DNA of 64,000 nt. Origin: Chryseolinea sp. H1M3-3 (GTDB lineage: Bacteria > Bacteroidota > Bacteroidia > Cytophagales > Cyclobacteriaceae). The notes under the pieces are model-generated. The model was not told the DNA's origin, made no database searches, and was given only the letters and a program-made list of their open reading frames with translations. The stretch spans positions 886,431 through 950,430 of the forward strand of contig NZ_JARKMY010000010.1 of the NCBI RefSeq assembly GCF_029360725.1, read 5' to 3'. The first letter of the stretch is position 1. Each line of letters starts with the position of its first letter. Below, in pieces: positions 22,124 through 26,869 of this stretch. The translations under genes were made by a program, and so were the position numbers.

Positions 22124-23395
22124 TTATGCGAATGCGAACGATTCCTCGGAGGTAGATTTTTTCTCTGGCGTAAAGACAGCTCCCGGAGCCAAAATGATCC
22201 CGACACCATCAAGCAAAGACCACTCGTGGAGCTTCGAAAGGCTCACTTTACCGACCATATACTGTTTTCCGTGCGATGCGTACCCGGATTCAAAGTGTGC
22301 AAAATCACTGATGGAGATATTAATACCTTTATCAAAACTTACGAATGCCTCCACCAACAAATGATTTGAAAATTGAAGATCGTTTAATTGATGTAATTTT
22401 TTGTACTCGTATTGATATTGATAGGTGAGGGCAGAAATATCGGAGAGCACTGCTGATCCGGTCGGATAGCTACCAGCACCCTTACCAACAAAAAGTTGTT
22501 TCTCTGCAAATGCACTTTCGAGTTGTACAGCATTGTATTCGTTGCGAACGGCGTAAAGCGGATGCGTAGATTCTATGAACTGTGGACAGACAAAACCATA
22601 AACCCGGTTCTTAATTTTGAAGGCTCTCGCTACAAGCTTGATCGCATAATGATTGTCGTAAGCAAATTTTAAATCAAGCTCCGATATTTTATCAATACCG
22701 ATGTTGATAACATCTTCCGGTTTTACGAATACTCCGAAGGTATGGGCAATTGCAATCACTAATTTGAATTTGGGGTCAAAGCCTTTAACATCCAGACTCG
22801 GATCTGATTCTGCAAACCCTAATTCCTGCGCTTGTTGTAAAGCATCCGAATAATTCTTTTTCTCTTCGAAAACTTTCGTCAGAATGTAGTTTGTGGACCC
22901 GTTAAAAATACCTTCAATACCGGTTAACAAGTCGTTGTCGTAATATTCTTCGAGATTTCTAATGATCGGAATACTTCCGCAAACTGACCCTTCGTATAAA
23001 ACTGGCTTTCCATACTGACGCTGGAGATGATAGATTTCTTCGAGATGTTCTGCCAGCATTTTTTTATTTGCCGTGACGACGGCTTTACCTTTTTGCAAGG
23101 CTTCCTTCACGATTTCGAAAGCTGCATTTGAATCATCAATCAATTCAACAACAACATCAATTTCAGGGTCATTTAATATTTCTTCTTTATCGAATGTGAA
23201 TAATTTTTCAGGGAGCAAGCGAGATTTGTTTTTATCTTTTACGCAAATCTTTTTAATGTCTGCTTTGATTCCTGGTGTTTCATTTAACACATGATAAAGT
23301 CCCTGGCCTACACATCCAAATCCAAATACACCTAGGGTGAGATGGCGATGATTAGTTGTATTAGATTGATGCGGTACCTTATTTTCCAAACTCAT
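22124..23395 (-). CDS. hom: Homoserine dehydrogenase
   Basis: 423 residues from the ATG at 23395 (MSLENKVPHQ); the longer frame would begin inside metX. Reduces aspartate semialdehyde to homoserine. NAD(P)-binding glycine motif GVFGFGCVGQG, then the catalytic domain with GIFNGSTNYILTKV, DPSLDVKGFDPKFKLVIA and the active-site lysine region. No C-terminal ACT domain, so feedback control through that domain is absent. Starts 16 bp after metX, in the order metY-metX-hom, which supplies homoserine for O-acetylation and sulfhydrylation to homocysteine. Confidence 0.92.
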   Translation of the reverse strand: MSLENKVPHQSNTTNHRHLTLGVFGFGCVGQGLYHVLNETPGIKADIKKICVKDKNKSRLLPEKLFTFDKEEILNDPEIDVVVELIDDSNAAFEIVKEALQKGKAVVTANKKMLAEHLEEIYHLQRQYGKPVLYEGSVCGSIPIIRNLEEYYDNDLLTGIEGIFNGSTNYILTKVFEEKKNYSDALQQAQELGFAESDPSLDVKGFDPKFKLVIAIAHTFGVFVKPEDVINIGIDKISELDLKFAYDNHYAIKLVARAFKIKNRVYGFVCPQFIESTHPLYAVRNEYNAVQLESAFAEKQLFVGKGAGSYPTGSAVLSDISALTYQYQYEYKKLHQLNDLQFSNHLLVEAFVSFDKGINISISDFAHFESGYASHGKQYMVGKVSLSKLHEWSLLDGVGIILAPGAVFTPEKKSTSEESFAFA

Positions 23396-23411
23396 GATAT
23401 ACAATTTTAGT

Positions 23412-24461
23412 TTATGCGCTTGCTCTCGCTGAAATGTGATCTTGCGCAAAGAAATTTTTAATATGACTACTCAATTGTTCAAACTCAACCAAAAATCCGT
23501 CGTGACCGTAAAGTGAAGACATCACTTCAAGCCTTGCATCAGGAATATGTTCTGCTAGAAACTTCTGTTCCTGAAGAGGGAATAAGATATCGCTGTCAAT
23601 CCCCACGACCAATGTTCTGGCTTTAATCTTTTTTAAAGCATCTGCAACGCTTGGCCTATTCCGACCTACGTTGTGTGTATCCATCATGATGGACAGGCCC
23701 CAATAAGTAAATGCATTAAAACGATTTGCAAGCTTCTGACCTTGATAACGCTGATAGGTAGCAGCTCGAAAGTCCCGAAGCGTTTCATTGCTTTTCTCCG
23801 CTTGGGTGTGCTGATACGTTTCATAGTACCGGTATGAAATCATTCCGATGGCACGGGCAGCTTTCAATCCTTCTAACCCTGCACGCGGATGATTCTCTTT
23901 CCATGTTGGATCAGTTTCAATGGCCATGCGCTGCGCCTCGTTAAAAGCAATTCCCCACGGTGAATGATTGGCGTTGGTAGCAATTGGAATGATATGTTGA
24001 AACACATCGGGTTGTTGAATGGCCCACTCCAAAACCTGCTGGCCACCCAACGAGCCACCAATAAGGGTGTGAATATTCTCCAGTCGAAGTTCTTTTCGCA
24101 GCAGGTCAAATGCATGCACCACGTCACGGTTGGTAACCGGTGGAAAGTTATGATAATATGGTTTGCTTGTCTTTGGATCTATTGAAAGCGGACCTGTGGA
24201 TCCATAGCATCCACCCAACACGTTAGCACAGACGATGAAGTAATGACGCGGATCAAAAAATCTTCCTTCATCAAAAAGCCCACTCCACCAGTCAGTGAAA
24301 TCAGAACTTCCGGTCAACGCGTGACAGATCCAGACAACATTACTGCGGTCAGCATTAAGCTTACCAAGCGTGGTGTATTTAAGTTGAAATCCAGACAAGG
24401 TTGACCCCGACTCCAGCGAAAAATCCTGCTTGTAGTGAAATGTATGATCGTATTTCTCCAT
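23412..24461 (-). CDS. metX: Homoserine O-acetyltransferase
   Basis: 349 residues, alpha/beta-hydrolase fold. Nucleophile Ser137 in GGSLGGQQVLEWA; acid in GIDSDILFP; histidine in YGHDGFLVE near the C-terminus; oxyanion region NVVWICHALTGSSD. Transfers acetyl from acetyl-CoA to homoserine. It lies between metY and hom on the same strand. A long 15 bp stem-loop separates it from metY (24526-24562), so expression of metX-hom relative to metY could be reduced there. Confidence 0.94.
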   Translation of the reverse strand: MEKYDHTFHYKQDFSLESGSTLSGFQLKYTTLGKLNADRSNVVWICHALTGSSDFTDWWSGLFDEGRFFDPRHYFIVCANVLGGCYGSTGPLSIDPKTSKPYYHNFPPVTNRDVVHAFDLLRKELRLENIHTLIGGSLGGQQVLEWAIQQPDVFQHIIPIATNANHSPWGIAFNEAQRMAIETDPTWKENHPRAGLEGLKAARAIGMISYRYYETYQHTQAEKSNETLRDFRAATYQRYQGQKLANRFNAFTYWGLSIMMDTHNVGRNRPSVADALKKIKARTLVVGIDSDILFPLQEQKFLAEHIPDARLEVMSSLYGHDGFLVEFEQLSSHIKNFFAQDHISARASA

Positions 24462-24568: not shown

Positions 24569-25912
<1,344 letters not shown>

Positions 25913-25930
25913 TTAGATGTATTGTGTAAT

Positions 25931-25985
25931 CAAAATTATATAGCCGTAACCAGCTTGCCTGTCACTGGGCAGGGTCATAGGCTAT
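25931..25985 (-). terminator. Terminator-like attenuator structure ahead of metY
   Basis: On the minus strand, outer arms ATAGCC (25985-25980) and GGCTAT (25945-25940) enclose an inner stem CCTGCC (25973-25968) with GGCAAG (25959-25954), loop eight bases, then ATAATTTTG. This is a plausible transcription terminator 40 nt before the metY start. Inference: readthrough could be controlled by the upstream leader. The U run is short, so translation-level control is also possible. Confidence 0.5.
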
Positions 25986-26022
25986 TTGTTGCTGAAAGGA
26001 GCTACTCACTGATCAGCAACAA
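25986..26022 (-). promoter_or_regulatory. Hairpin overlapping the cysteine codons of the metY leader
   Basis: Ten-base perfect inverted repeat: TTGTTGCTGA (minus 26022-26013, containing the last Cys codons and the stop of the leader ORF) pairs with TCAGCAACAA (25995-25986), spacer 17 bases. The first copy of the TTGTTG repeat in the Cys-codon run could pair with the same 3' arm. A ribosome stalled on the cysteine codons would block or shift this pairing, as expected in ribosome-mediated attenuation. Confidence 0.6.
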
Positions 26023-26153
26023 CGGCAACAACAACACATGCACGCATTGGAAATGCTAGACATGTCATCAATAAAATTAAGGAAGCTTTTGAAGTAAGCA
26101 CGCAAACGTACGTTGCTTGTTCCTGTGATGAGGCTGATGATGATTTTTTTCAT
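26013..26153 (-). CDS. 46-residue cysteine-rich leader peptide upstream of metY
   Basis: ATG at 26153 to TGA at 26013. The peptide begins MKKIIISLITG and ends ACMCCCCRCC: seven cysteines in the last nine residues, all near the stop. It lies between a SAM-I riboswitch and a hairpin plus terminator-like structure ahead of metY. Poly-cysteine leader ORFs that act as cysteine-sensing attenuators are established in mycobacteria. By analogy, slow decoding of the Cys codons when cysteine is scarce would change leader folding and raise metY expression. The non-cysteine part is basic and unremarkable. Too short to be recognised by homology; the call rests on the codon run and context. Confidence 0.7.
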   Translation of the reverse strand: MKKIIISLITGTSNVRLRAYFKSFLNFIDDMSSISNACMCCCCRCC

Positions 26154-26164
26154 TTTTTAACCGG

Positions 26165-26268
26165 TTTATAGTTCCCCCACCATCGGTGGGAAGTCAGGAT
26201 TTAGCACCTTTCATATTTAGGAGGTTGCTAGCGTTTCATTGAGCCTGTCTCTCCGCGCTTCTTTATAA
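26165..26268 (-). ncRNA. SAM-I (S-box) riboswitch controlling metY-metX-hom
   Basis: Minus strand. Conserved core elements occur in order: GGAGAGA, CAGGCTCAATGAAACG, CTAGCAACCT, AAGGTGCTAAATCCTGA, then a P4 hairpin (CCCACC/GGTGGG). A closing P1 stem is possible between TTTATA near 26267 and TATAAA at 26170-26165. This matches the S-box consensus. Binding S-adenosylmethionine should lower expression. Its 3' end lies 12 bases before the start codon of the cysteine-rich leader ORF, so SAM binding may act on leader translation as well as on transcription. Confidence 0.9.
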
Positions 26269-26307
26269 ATCGATTAAGCGGAAGTGCTTATTCGACTTTT
26301 GTGAATA

Positions 26308-26338
26308 CAAACGTAGGGCTTGAAAGGAATGTTTGCAA
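26308..26338 (-). promoter_or_regulatory. Bacteroidota promoter of the metY operon
   Basis: On the minus strand, -33 element TTG (26338-26336), spacer 20 bases, then -7 element TACGTTTG (26315-26308), a perfect TAnnTTTG. A start near 26301 would give a leader of about 410 nt before metY, holding the riboswitch, the leader ORF and the hairpins. Confidence 0.65.
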
Positions 26339-26419
26339 GCCGATGTAAATCTTTTTTTGTGGGATTACTCACAGGTGTTAGGGAGACTTGAAATTTCACC
26401 ATTGAGCACACAACCACTT

Positions 26420-26869
26420 TTAGCTTTTTTTAATGAGTGAAATTTGTCCTGTATGGTATACATCATGGTGAATTATGCCGTGCAGCAAAGTATAAAACGT
26501 GTATTCACCGGATCCTTGTGGCACAACCTCAAATAGTCTGGACGCGGGAAAGGATGTCAGCAAACGAAGAAGTTGTTCCTGGCTTTTATACAATTCCATC
26601 ACAACTTTTGGCCAATTCATTGCTGCCGGAAAATTCAATTCATCGGTAATGGTAAATTGATTATCACCTTCCAACCGTTTAATAACAAATAATCGCCACG
26701 ATGTCATATGAGCGACCAACTCGATGATGCTATGCGTGTGCCCAAGCCGTTTTGATGCCCACTCCGGTTGAATATCACTCAACACTTCTTTCACCGATGG
26801 TCCATACCATGGATTCTTTTCAAAGGTGCTATTCAAAAGCGAAACAATGTGTTCGATCTCGCCGGCCAT
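26420..26869 (-). CDS. DinB-family protein
   Basis: 149 residues, four-helix DinB/YfiT fold. Likely metal histidines at HSIIELVAHMTSW and at HGIIHHDVYHTGQI, the usual three-His arrangement. Family members include thiol-dependent S-transferases (bacillithiol-type), but many have unknown roles. It lies downstream of fabG by 40 bp on the same strand; the metY promoter starts just past its end. No specific function can be assigned. Confidence 0.8.
   Translation of the reverse strand: MAGEIEHIVSLLNSTFEKNPWYGPSVKEVLSDIQPEWASKRLGHTHSIIELVAHMTSWRLFVIKRLEGDNQFTITDELNFPAAMNWPKVVMELYKSQEQLLRLLTSFPASRLFEVVPQGSGEYTFYTLLHGIIHHDVYHTGQISLIKKS

Follow-up and report, generated by a model that had tools for sequence, protein, structure and literature searches.

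Upstream of the metY-metX-hom genes of Chryseolinea sp. H1M3-3 lies a leader in which a SAM-I riboswitch (S-box) is followed by a short open reading frame (ORF) ending in cysteine codons, and this raises the question of whether the two elements are real and whether they act side by side or one under the other. The original prediction, made for the stretch of 64,000 nucleotides analysed here (the window), had described a promoter, a SAM-I core, a 46-codon ORF with seven cysteines among its last nine residues, a 10-bp hairpin including the last Cys codons and a terminator-like structure ahead of metY-metX-hom, and had proposed a logic gate on SAM and cysteine. The analysis confirmed that an S-box and a poly-Cys leader ORF are present upstream of these genes. 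The parts of the locus, all on the reverse strand, are the following:

26308..26338 (-): putative promoter, with TTG at 26338-26336 and the -7 box TACGTTTG at 26315-26308
26267..26298 (-): hairpin 5' of the aptamer (anti-P1 hairpin), 12 bp in the MFE fold
26163..26271 (-): SAM-I (S-box) aptamer, RF00162, 67 bits (gathering score 44.4)
26157..26170 (-): 3' strand of P1 with its extension GGTTAA, which can pair with 26277-26264
26013..26153 (-): leader ORF of 46 codons ending in CMCCCCRCC, translation MKKIIISLITGTSNVRLRAYFKSFLNFIDDMSSISNACMCCCCRCC
26016..26042 (-): putative regulatory codon run Cys-Met-Cys4-Arg-Cys2 abutting the stop, from the sequence
25986..26022 (-): 10-bp hairpin, exact pairing of the last Cys codons and stop TTGTTGCTGA (26022-26013) with the anti-Cys arm TCAGCAACAA (25995-25986)
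25940..25985 (-): second hairpin ATAGCC...GGCTAT, whose inner part contains a conserved GTGAC, from fold and alignment
24569..25891 (-): metY, O-acetylhomoserine sulfhydrylase (TIGR01326, 680 bits, cut-off 495.1)
23412..24461 (-): metX-like homoserine O-acyltransferase (best match TIGR01392, 353 bits, under the cut-off of 500)
22124..23449 (-): hom, homoserine dehydrogenase (NF004976, PRK06349; 315.4 bits, cut-off 205), whose true start is probably the ATG near 23395

The SAM-I core, the ORF with its seven terminal cysteines, the exact 10-bp hairpin and the three downstream genes were all recovered, the metX assignment being a below-cut-off match, and the predicted promoter was borne out as a putative one by its TTG and a -7 box matching the Bacteroidota consensus TAnnTTTG, which is given for Flavobacterium (PMC9723704). 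The aptamer scored above the RF00162 gathering cut-off and stands ahead of Met/SAM or sulfur genes, as expected of an S-box. The closest named relatives of the window MetY are those of Chryseolinea lacunae and C. serpens (93 and 92%).

The leader ORF starts 9 nt beyond the last helix of the aptamer, Cys makes up 7 of its final 9 residues, and its peptide had no Pfam or NCBIfam match at E<=0.1. It does not appear to be a leaderless ORF, as the putative -7 box is some 155 nt upstream of it and the aptamer comes in between. A Cys T-box was rejected, since no T-box match was found in the window at the gathering threshold or in 25850-26420 up to E=5. A tandem of two aptamers was likewise not found: the window gave a single Rfam match at the gathering threshold, and SAM-I was the sole credible aptamer in the leader up to E=5.

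Occurrence of the Cys leader and the genes that carry it

S-boxes were searched in 59 genomes of the window's order, its own genome included; 52 had a match, and all 126 S-box loci listed from them were read. A Cys leader was counted where an ORF starting between -10 and +80 of the S-box end carried at least 3 Cys in 8 residues. By this rule, 56 of the 126 S-boxes had a Cys leader ORF, whereas dinucleotide shuffles gave 1.62 and the antisense strand 2, and these 56 leaders were spread over 35 of the 52 S-box-bearing genomes and 29 genera. A second set comprised 80 metY loci from named genomes, picked by protein and not by S-box, and it overlaps the first in that some genomes are common to both. 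In this named set, a Cys ORF was present within 330 nt upstream of metY in 54 of 80 loci (shuffles, 2.25; antisense strand, 3; a control region further upstream, 3), and an S-box was found in 72, in 52 of which the Cys ORF directly adjoined it. Extending the scan to 700 nt gave 58 Cys ORFs, a few distant ones probably being due to chance. From a phylum sample of 118 genomes, 110 further S-box loci among the matches listed were read (30 search matches and 80 regions); a Cys ORF accompanied 1 of the 9 S-boxes of the same family, 2 of the 37 elsewhere in the class and none of the 64 in other classes.

The named metY loci with a Cys leader came from Chryseolinea, Chryseosolibacter, Parachryseolinea, Cesiribacter, Imperialibacter, Mongoliibacter, Pararhodonellum, Bernardetia, Solitalea and Mucilaginibacter, and also from bins assigned to Cytophagales, Chitinophagaceae and Saprospiraceae, with a single one from Flavobacteriales. 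The check set beforehand on the prediction was whether the ORF and the Cys run are conserved in relatives with an S-box, and both were kept widely, the short ORF following 56 of the 126 S-boxes in Cytophagales. The exception was Algoriphagus and its relatives, which keep the S-box and the AUG without the Cys run: ten leaders of Algoriphagus, Belliella, Aquiflexum and Cognataquiflexum had an S-box and an ATG at +8/+9 with no Cys run by the rule. An Algoriphagus-type natural loss series is provided by loci L310, L318, L325, L328, L331, L334, L335, L337, L344 and L345; the L337 locus also has an Rfam DUF805 RNA match (L337:195-262) near metY.

The pattern TGYTGYTGYTGY occurred 61 times in the own genome, as compared with 26 times for the reversed control pattern, and 30 of these sites were fetched and read, sites spanned by a frame of more than 150 codons being set aside. 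Among the 30, short frames with the run at most 10 codons from the stop were the two S-box leaders (L143, and L150/L151, which are one place) and L140, an intergenic site whose frame has no ATG.

None of the 38 metH S-boxes had a Cys leader, as compared with 56 of the 88 other S-boxes (Fisher p 7e-13, uncorrected for relatedness); the metH group counts 38 by motif and 40 by protein cluster. The largest group with the leader was that of metY/metB-type PLP enzymes (34 of 55 by the rule used for the gene groups, the other 21 having no Cys leader). Smaller groups, identified from one representative each, were OsmC-like proteins, sulfatases, PhyH-type oxygenases, TonB receptors, sulfite/nitrite reductases, an antiporter-family protein, an ATP-grasp protein and unknown proteins. 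The OsmC-like gene is followed by metY in two named loci (L276 and L301), and several of the genes preceded by a Cys leader lack a known sulfur role. The 32 of 88 non-metH S-boxes without a Cys leader by the rule include that of a PAPS-reductase gene (L070), whose leader ends with two Cys only. MetH methylates homocysteine. Since Cys leaders occur outside the metH group and at none of its 38 S-boxes, genes of sulfur uptake and fixing often bear both sensors, and metH bears SAM sensing alone. In the own genome, no Cys ORF was found ahead of the cystathionine beta-synthase (CBS)-like (L356) or cysM-like (L355) genes, and one ORF ahead of the other sulfhydrylase-like gene (L349) passed a loose rule with no terminal Cys run.

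P1, the leader start and the hairpin upstream of the aptamer

The start of the leader ORF lies at a nearly fixed distance from the aptamer. An ATG at +6 to +11 after the S-box was found in 47 of the 56 Cys leaders (4.6 expected) and in 22 of the 32 other non-metH leaders (2.8 expected), as compared with 0 of 38 metH leaders (2.9 expected). Since the AUG was kept in 11 of 13 adjacent named leaders that had lost the Cys run, translation of the leader may matter even where cysteine is not sensed. In the window, 26157-26170 and 26277-26264 can form 13 pairs around one mismatch, and the pairing stops 3 nt short of the leader ATG. Such an extension of P1 toward the ATG was also detected in the Cys class, with a mean of 2.88 as compared with 2.04 in permutations (sd 0.19) at 50 of the 56 loci, those with the ATG at -3 to +16, and gave no signal at the 38 metH loci (0.74 vs 0.82 permuted).

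The region 5' of the aptamer showed a second regularity. Its fold ranked in the best 5% of shuffles at 33 of the 56 Cys loci and at 39 of 51 loci of the named set, five of which have a remote S-box (L303, L307, L308, L312, L343), as well as at 14 of 31 other non-metH leaders (of 32) and at 3 of 38 metH leaders. Pairing of this upstream arm with the P1 5' strand of the same locus gave -7.06 as compared with -4.94 in permutations (sd 0.27) for the 56 loci, and -9.34 as compared with -6.02 (sd 0.31) for the 51 named ones. After de-duplication to one locus per distinct P1 9-mer, which left 66 of 101 loci from the overlapping sets and omitted the five with a remote S-box, 5000 permutations were run: the P1 5' strand gave -7.70 vs -4.91 (sd 0.26; best permutation -5.96) with the upstream arm and -7.65 vs -5.07 (sd 0.26; best permutation -6.16) with the 3' strand and linker, these tests being optimistic because the loci are related. 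The P1 5' strand thus covaries with two partners, namely the strand that runs toward the leader AUG and the hairpin 5' of the aptamer. There was no such signal for the upstream arm in metH (-3.59 vs -3.38 permuted, sd 0.24), and the anti-P1 signal was not seen in some Cys loci, e.g., L001.

In the window, the 3' arm of the anti-P1 hairpin overlaps the P1 5' strand and the extension of that strand. The predicted ligand-free ensemble contained the upstream hairpin pair 26295:26270 at 99.7% and a P1 pair at 0.5%, and the folds with the upstream hairpin and with P1 had energies of -36.6 and -30.9 kcal/mol, respectively, a gap of 5.7 kcal/mol that SAM binding would have to pay. Positions 26170-26154 were predicted to be unpaired at a mean of 0.69 without ligand and of 0.24 with P1; the predicted opening is only partial, because 26164-26159 stay mostly paired elsewhere in the ligand-free state and the leader AUG is 30-49% unpaired with or without P1. 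The promoter positions fit such a hairpin: TANNTTTG was found within 120 nt upstream of 34 of the 56 Cys-type S-boxes (3.9 expected), mostly at 28-53 nt, a distance that leaves room for it, and in 16 of 38 cases (3.7 expected) for the metH S-boxes, where most boxes lay 11-14 nt upstream.

As is characteristic of a riboswitch-controlled uORF, the helix adjoins the uORF start and, as judged from comparison and prediction, would be able to cover it. Because P1 comes close to the AUG and the 5' hairpin competes for P1, the S-box most likely gates the translation of the Cys sensor, and from the covariation and the predicted folds we infer a translational gate on the leader ORF with a competing hairpin 5' of the aptamer. 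The proposed tandem stood in that both elements are present; their independence did not, given that P1 reaches within a few nucleotides of the leader AUG and the 5' hairpin competes for the P1 5' strand.

The metH S-boxes may use a different platform, probably a translational one. By eye, a second downstream GATAAG copy could pair with the P1 5' strand, for example in L012, L071, L075 and L080, and in some metH S-boxes a CTCTTTC stretch could pair with the region near the metH start.

The Cys run and the sequence downstream of it

Analysis of the 56 leader peptides revealed that Cys accounts for 44.2% of the last 12 residues (n=672) as compared with 1.5% of the bodies (n=1375), and Met for 6.4 and 1.5%, respectively. 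The runs mostly comprise 3-7 Cys codons just before the stop. Where an ATG lay at +6 to +11 after the S-box, the first TGYTGYTGY run within 200 nt was in frame with it and open in 43 of 43 and 46 of 46 leaders of the two overlapping sets. Gaps in 13 leader pairs were all multiples of 3 save in a single case (12, 2 and 1, together 15), and in 7 of the 13 the position of the Cys codons counted from the stop differed. The runs are interrupted in frame by Met, Arg, Ala or Tyr codons, and the peptides vary from 15 to 54 aa, their bodies having no visible common sequence beyond close relatives. The leader thus has the short ORF with a codon run for the sensed amino acid that is expected of an attenuator; by analogy with known attenuators, a terminal codon run in an otherwise free peptide would point to sensing of charged tRNA by the ribosome.

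Some leaders depart from this pattern. That of L213, with an ATG at +8 after the S-box and a tail rich in both Met and Cys (MCSPSMRMRMPMSCFSYMCA), is perhaps a Met-sensing variant. Upstream of metY in L303, L306, L307, L308, L312 and L343, Chitinophagaceae-type Cys leaders end with ...CMP at the stop, several with CICCxCCMP, and the loop of a hairpin UAUGCC-GUAA-GGCAUA (shorter in L306) holds the stop codon; the S-box lies more than 300 nt upstream, none being found for L306, and the ORF start seems close behind a promoter-like box. In L338, which had no S-box match, an ORF with the internal run CCMCCC is located about 260-60 nt before metY; between the two stands a strong hairpin that, with its U-rich tail, is by eye an intrinsic terminator. 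Mostly in one family of another class (L157-L168, L179-L184), ATGs were found inside the S-box 3' end, with short frames that open MMYA, MMVC or MVVC in many loci; these may represent a further leader ORF or simply part of the S-box.

Downstream of the stop, the window was aligned with 17 named loci whose MetY is 85-93% identical (the Chryseolinea group). The CAAC of the anti-Cys arm was invariant in 18 of 18 leaders and can pair with the Cys codons at two pairs in all 18, which, being invariant, say little on covariation. The consensus fold, which was weak (-4.5 kcal/mol, covariation term -0.11), pairs this arm with the first Cys codons, whereas the window's own fold pairs it with the last ones. 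In the second hairpin (25985-25940), one pair was changed on both sides in 5 of 18 sequences. Class-wide, pairing between the Cys codons and a downstream arm reached the 5% rank or better in 10 of 56 leaders (mean z -0.77); a universal pairing of this kind was rejected as weak across the class and conserved in sequence only in the Chryseolinea group. No general third pairing was found by eye among the Cys leaders, and in L001 and L083 the UGY repeat faces an ACAACA just before the ATG of the next gene.

The terminator-like structure of the prediction survived in part: the second hairpin is present in the window, but it is followed by UAUAAUUUUG instead of a clean U-tract, and by eye none of the 17 aligned relatives has a clean U-tract directly after it. 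As a general feature of the class, an intrinsic terminator was rejected, since a hairpin with U-tract at -8 kcal/mol or better was found in 21 of 56 Cys leaders against 15.3 expected, in a scan that passed over regions under 40 nt; the L338 terminator is a clear one by eye. The U-tract terminator of a classical attenuator is thus not clearly enriched among the Cys leaders, and the hairpin of the window leader lacks a clean U-tract. C-rich, G-poor sequence after the stop was considered as a sign of Rho and rejected as diagnostic because it is present in leaders without a Cys ORF too. The own genome has a rho gene, and the leader output is possibly exerted by Rho-dependent termination or by translational control.

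The proposed serial arrangement, its alternatives and known systems

Taken together, we consider it probable that this is a serial two-input RNA leader, in which SAM gates the translation of the leader ORF and the Cys run then tests Cys-tRNA. Without SAM, the hairpin just 5' of the aptamer would hold the P1 5' strand, a step for which there is comparative support, and P1 would not form before the leader AUG. With SAM, P1 would form and its extension would end about 3 nt short of the AUG, so that ribosomes would be expected not to bind. A ribosome translating the leader would meet the Cys codons before the stop, passing them if Cys-tRNA is charged and stalling if cysteine is short; here comparison of the leaders supports the sensor, and the mechanism is proposed. 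In the step that is the least secure of the three, a stalled ribosome would cover the Cys-codon strand that otherwise pairs with the anti-Cys arm, the downstream hairpins would change and metY-metX-hom would be expressed. With no ribosome on the Cys codons the leader would be off, via Rho-dependent termination or another route. Full expression would then be predicted only when SAM and Cys are both low. Such a logic would make sense in view of the own genome, which encodes a CBS-like protein (TIGR01137, 504.5 bits, below the cut-off of 510.25) and a cystathionine gamma-synthase/lyase-like protein, by which sulfur could move between Met and Cys. The two-input control by SAM and Cys that had been proposed remains plausible, the leader being widely conserved and the Cys run being the conserved part of its peptide.

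It was also considered that the S-box, with its own expression platform, and the Cys ORF, as a separate attenuator, are two independent devices in tandem. The modules are indeed separable, as some Cys ORFs had no S-box match in the locus read (L306, L311, L338, L342) and others lie over 300 nt downstream of theirs (L303, L307, L308, L312, L343). However, in 47 of the 56 Cys loci a gap of just 6-11 nt from P1 to the ATG leaves little room for a separate 3' platform, and covariation of both the P1 extension and the anti-P1 pairing was seen in the adjacent class but was absent from metH, so that this arrangement appears unlikely. Control by SAM alone through leader translation (by Rho shielding or RNA opening), with the Cys run having a minor role or none in sensing, would agree with the ten Algoriphagus-type leaders that keep the ATG at +8/+9 without a Cys run, and has a precedent in M. 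tuberculosis, where a riboswitch controls a uORF and Rho acts as the terminator (PMC12810186); the approximately 30-fold enrichment of Cys at the C-terminus over unrelated bodies and a run kept in frame in 43 of 43 and 46 of 46 leaders make it quite improbable.

The two remaining possibilities concern the nature of the run itself. The long Cys-rich tails and conserved translation signals would suit a functional microprotein, i.e., a metal or redox peptide rather than a cis-acting sensor, but bodies with no common sequence seen, lengths from 15 to 54 aa, the lack of a family match for the window peptide and the fixed place between riboswitch and gene speak strongly against such a product. We give equally little credence to the idea that the UGY repeats are an RNA pairing element whose open frame is incidental: the UGUUG strand can pair with the CAAC arm in 18 of 18 leaders, at two pairs and within one group, and the repeat of L001 and L083 faces ACAACA before the next ATG, yet the frame with the ATG was kept in every locus tested and the interruptions by Met, Arg, Ala or Tyr codons are in frame.

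The separate parts of the serial leader have precedents. A 2005 study predicted poly-Cys leaders that lack obvious terminators in Actinobacteria (PMC1262725), and mycobacterial ones were reported to be cysteine-responsive according to papers citing Canestrari 2020; they resemble the present leader in the short ORF with Cys codons near the stop, the sulfur genes next to it and the lack of an obvious intrinsic terminator, and differ in phylum and in that these accounts describe no riboswitch in front. The mycobacterial ORFs are called leaderless, whereas the window's ORF starts directly after a SAM-I aptamer. The uORFC-8-2 motif ahead of cysS in Rhodobacterales contains a Cys uORF whose tandem Cys codons lie inside the first of two stems (PMC8632094); as described there, unlike the present leader, it has a U-run terminator, usually two Cys codons, control of cysS and no riboswitch mentioned. 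In the Mbox-uORF and B12 riboswitch-uORF leaders of M. tuberculosis (PMC12810186, PMC11260477), a riboswitch is combined with a small upstream ORF, which the Mbox (and, by a section title, the ppe2 switch) controls; the aptamers and the phylum are different, and the available text does not describe the uORF as an amino-acid sensor.

SAM-I switches with the ribosome-binding site in the P1 3' strand, reported by Barrick and Breaker (PMC2258182), likewise have a P1 that directly covers a translation start region. As far as that account goes, the site covered there belongs to the regulated gene, whereas here it is the start of an attenuator-like ORF, and the competing hairpin of the window leader lies upstream of the aptamer. 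The SAM-I and AdoCbl tandem riboswitch ahead of B. clausii metE (PMC2258182; review PMC9481103) also joins two signals in one leader; the second sensor of the window would be a translating ribosome nested under the first, and not an aptamer. In Bacteroidota, a Flavobacterium transcriptome study mentions leader-peptide attenuation ahead of amino-acid operons (PMC9723704) and a Bacteroides one short ORFs in long leaders (PMC7366714), neither naming a Cys leader in the text available. A literature search, which covered few subscription papers and no preprints, turned up no account of a Cys leader combined with a SAM riboswitch, nor was the serial arrangement found described in it. On balance we favor, with some reserve, the view that this is a widespread Bacteroidota leader in which a riboswitch licenses a ribosome-based amino-acid sensor, so that SAM and cysteine would be combined in series by an AND-type gate, the competing hairpin lying 5' of the aptamer instead of downstream.

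If true, the leader would be a natural serial RNA logic gate joining a metabolite aptamer to codon-based sensing, and the cell, in many Cytophagales and some related bacteria, would seem to read methionine and then cysteine status in series before more sulfur uptake. About 100 loci (101, from overlapping sets), together with the relatives that have the ATG without the Cys run, offer a direct way to test the mechanism. Since the ORF is short and the window's copy has no family match, it may readily be overlooked by gene callers. The leader separates SAM-only genes (metH) from SAM-plus-Cys genes, and by this split it can suggest sulfur roles for TonB receptors, PhyH oxygenases and unknown proteins of 173-182 aa.

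A second Cys-type S-box was observed in the own genome at C7:72705-72800. Downstream of it lie genes for proteins of 173 and 334 aa without a Pfam match, a TonB receptor and an FAD oxidoreductase, and an Rrf2 regulator is encoded nearby, making this region (L360, C7:66000-72900) a candidate sulfur-scavenging locus.
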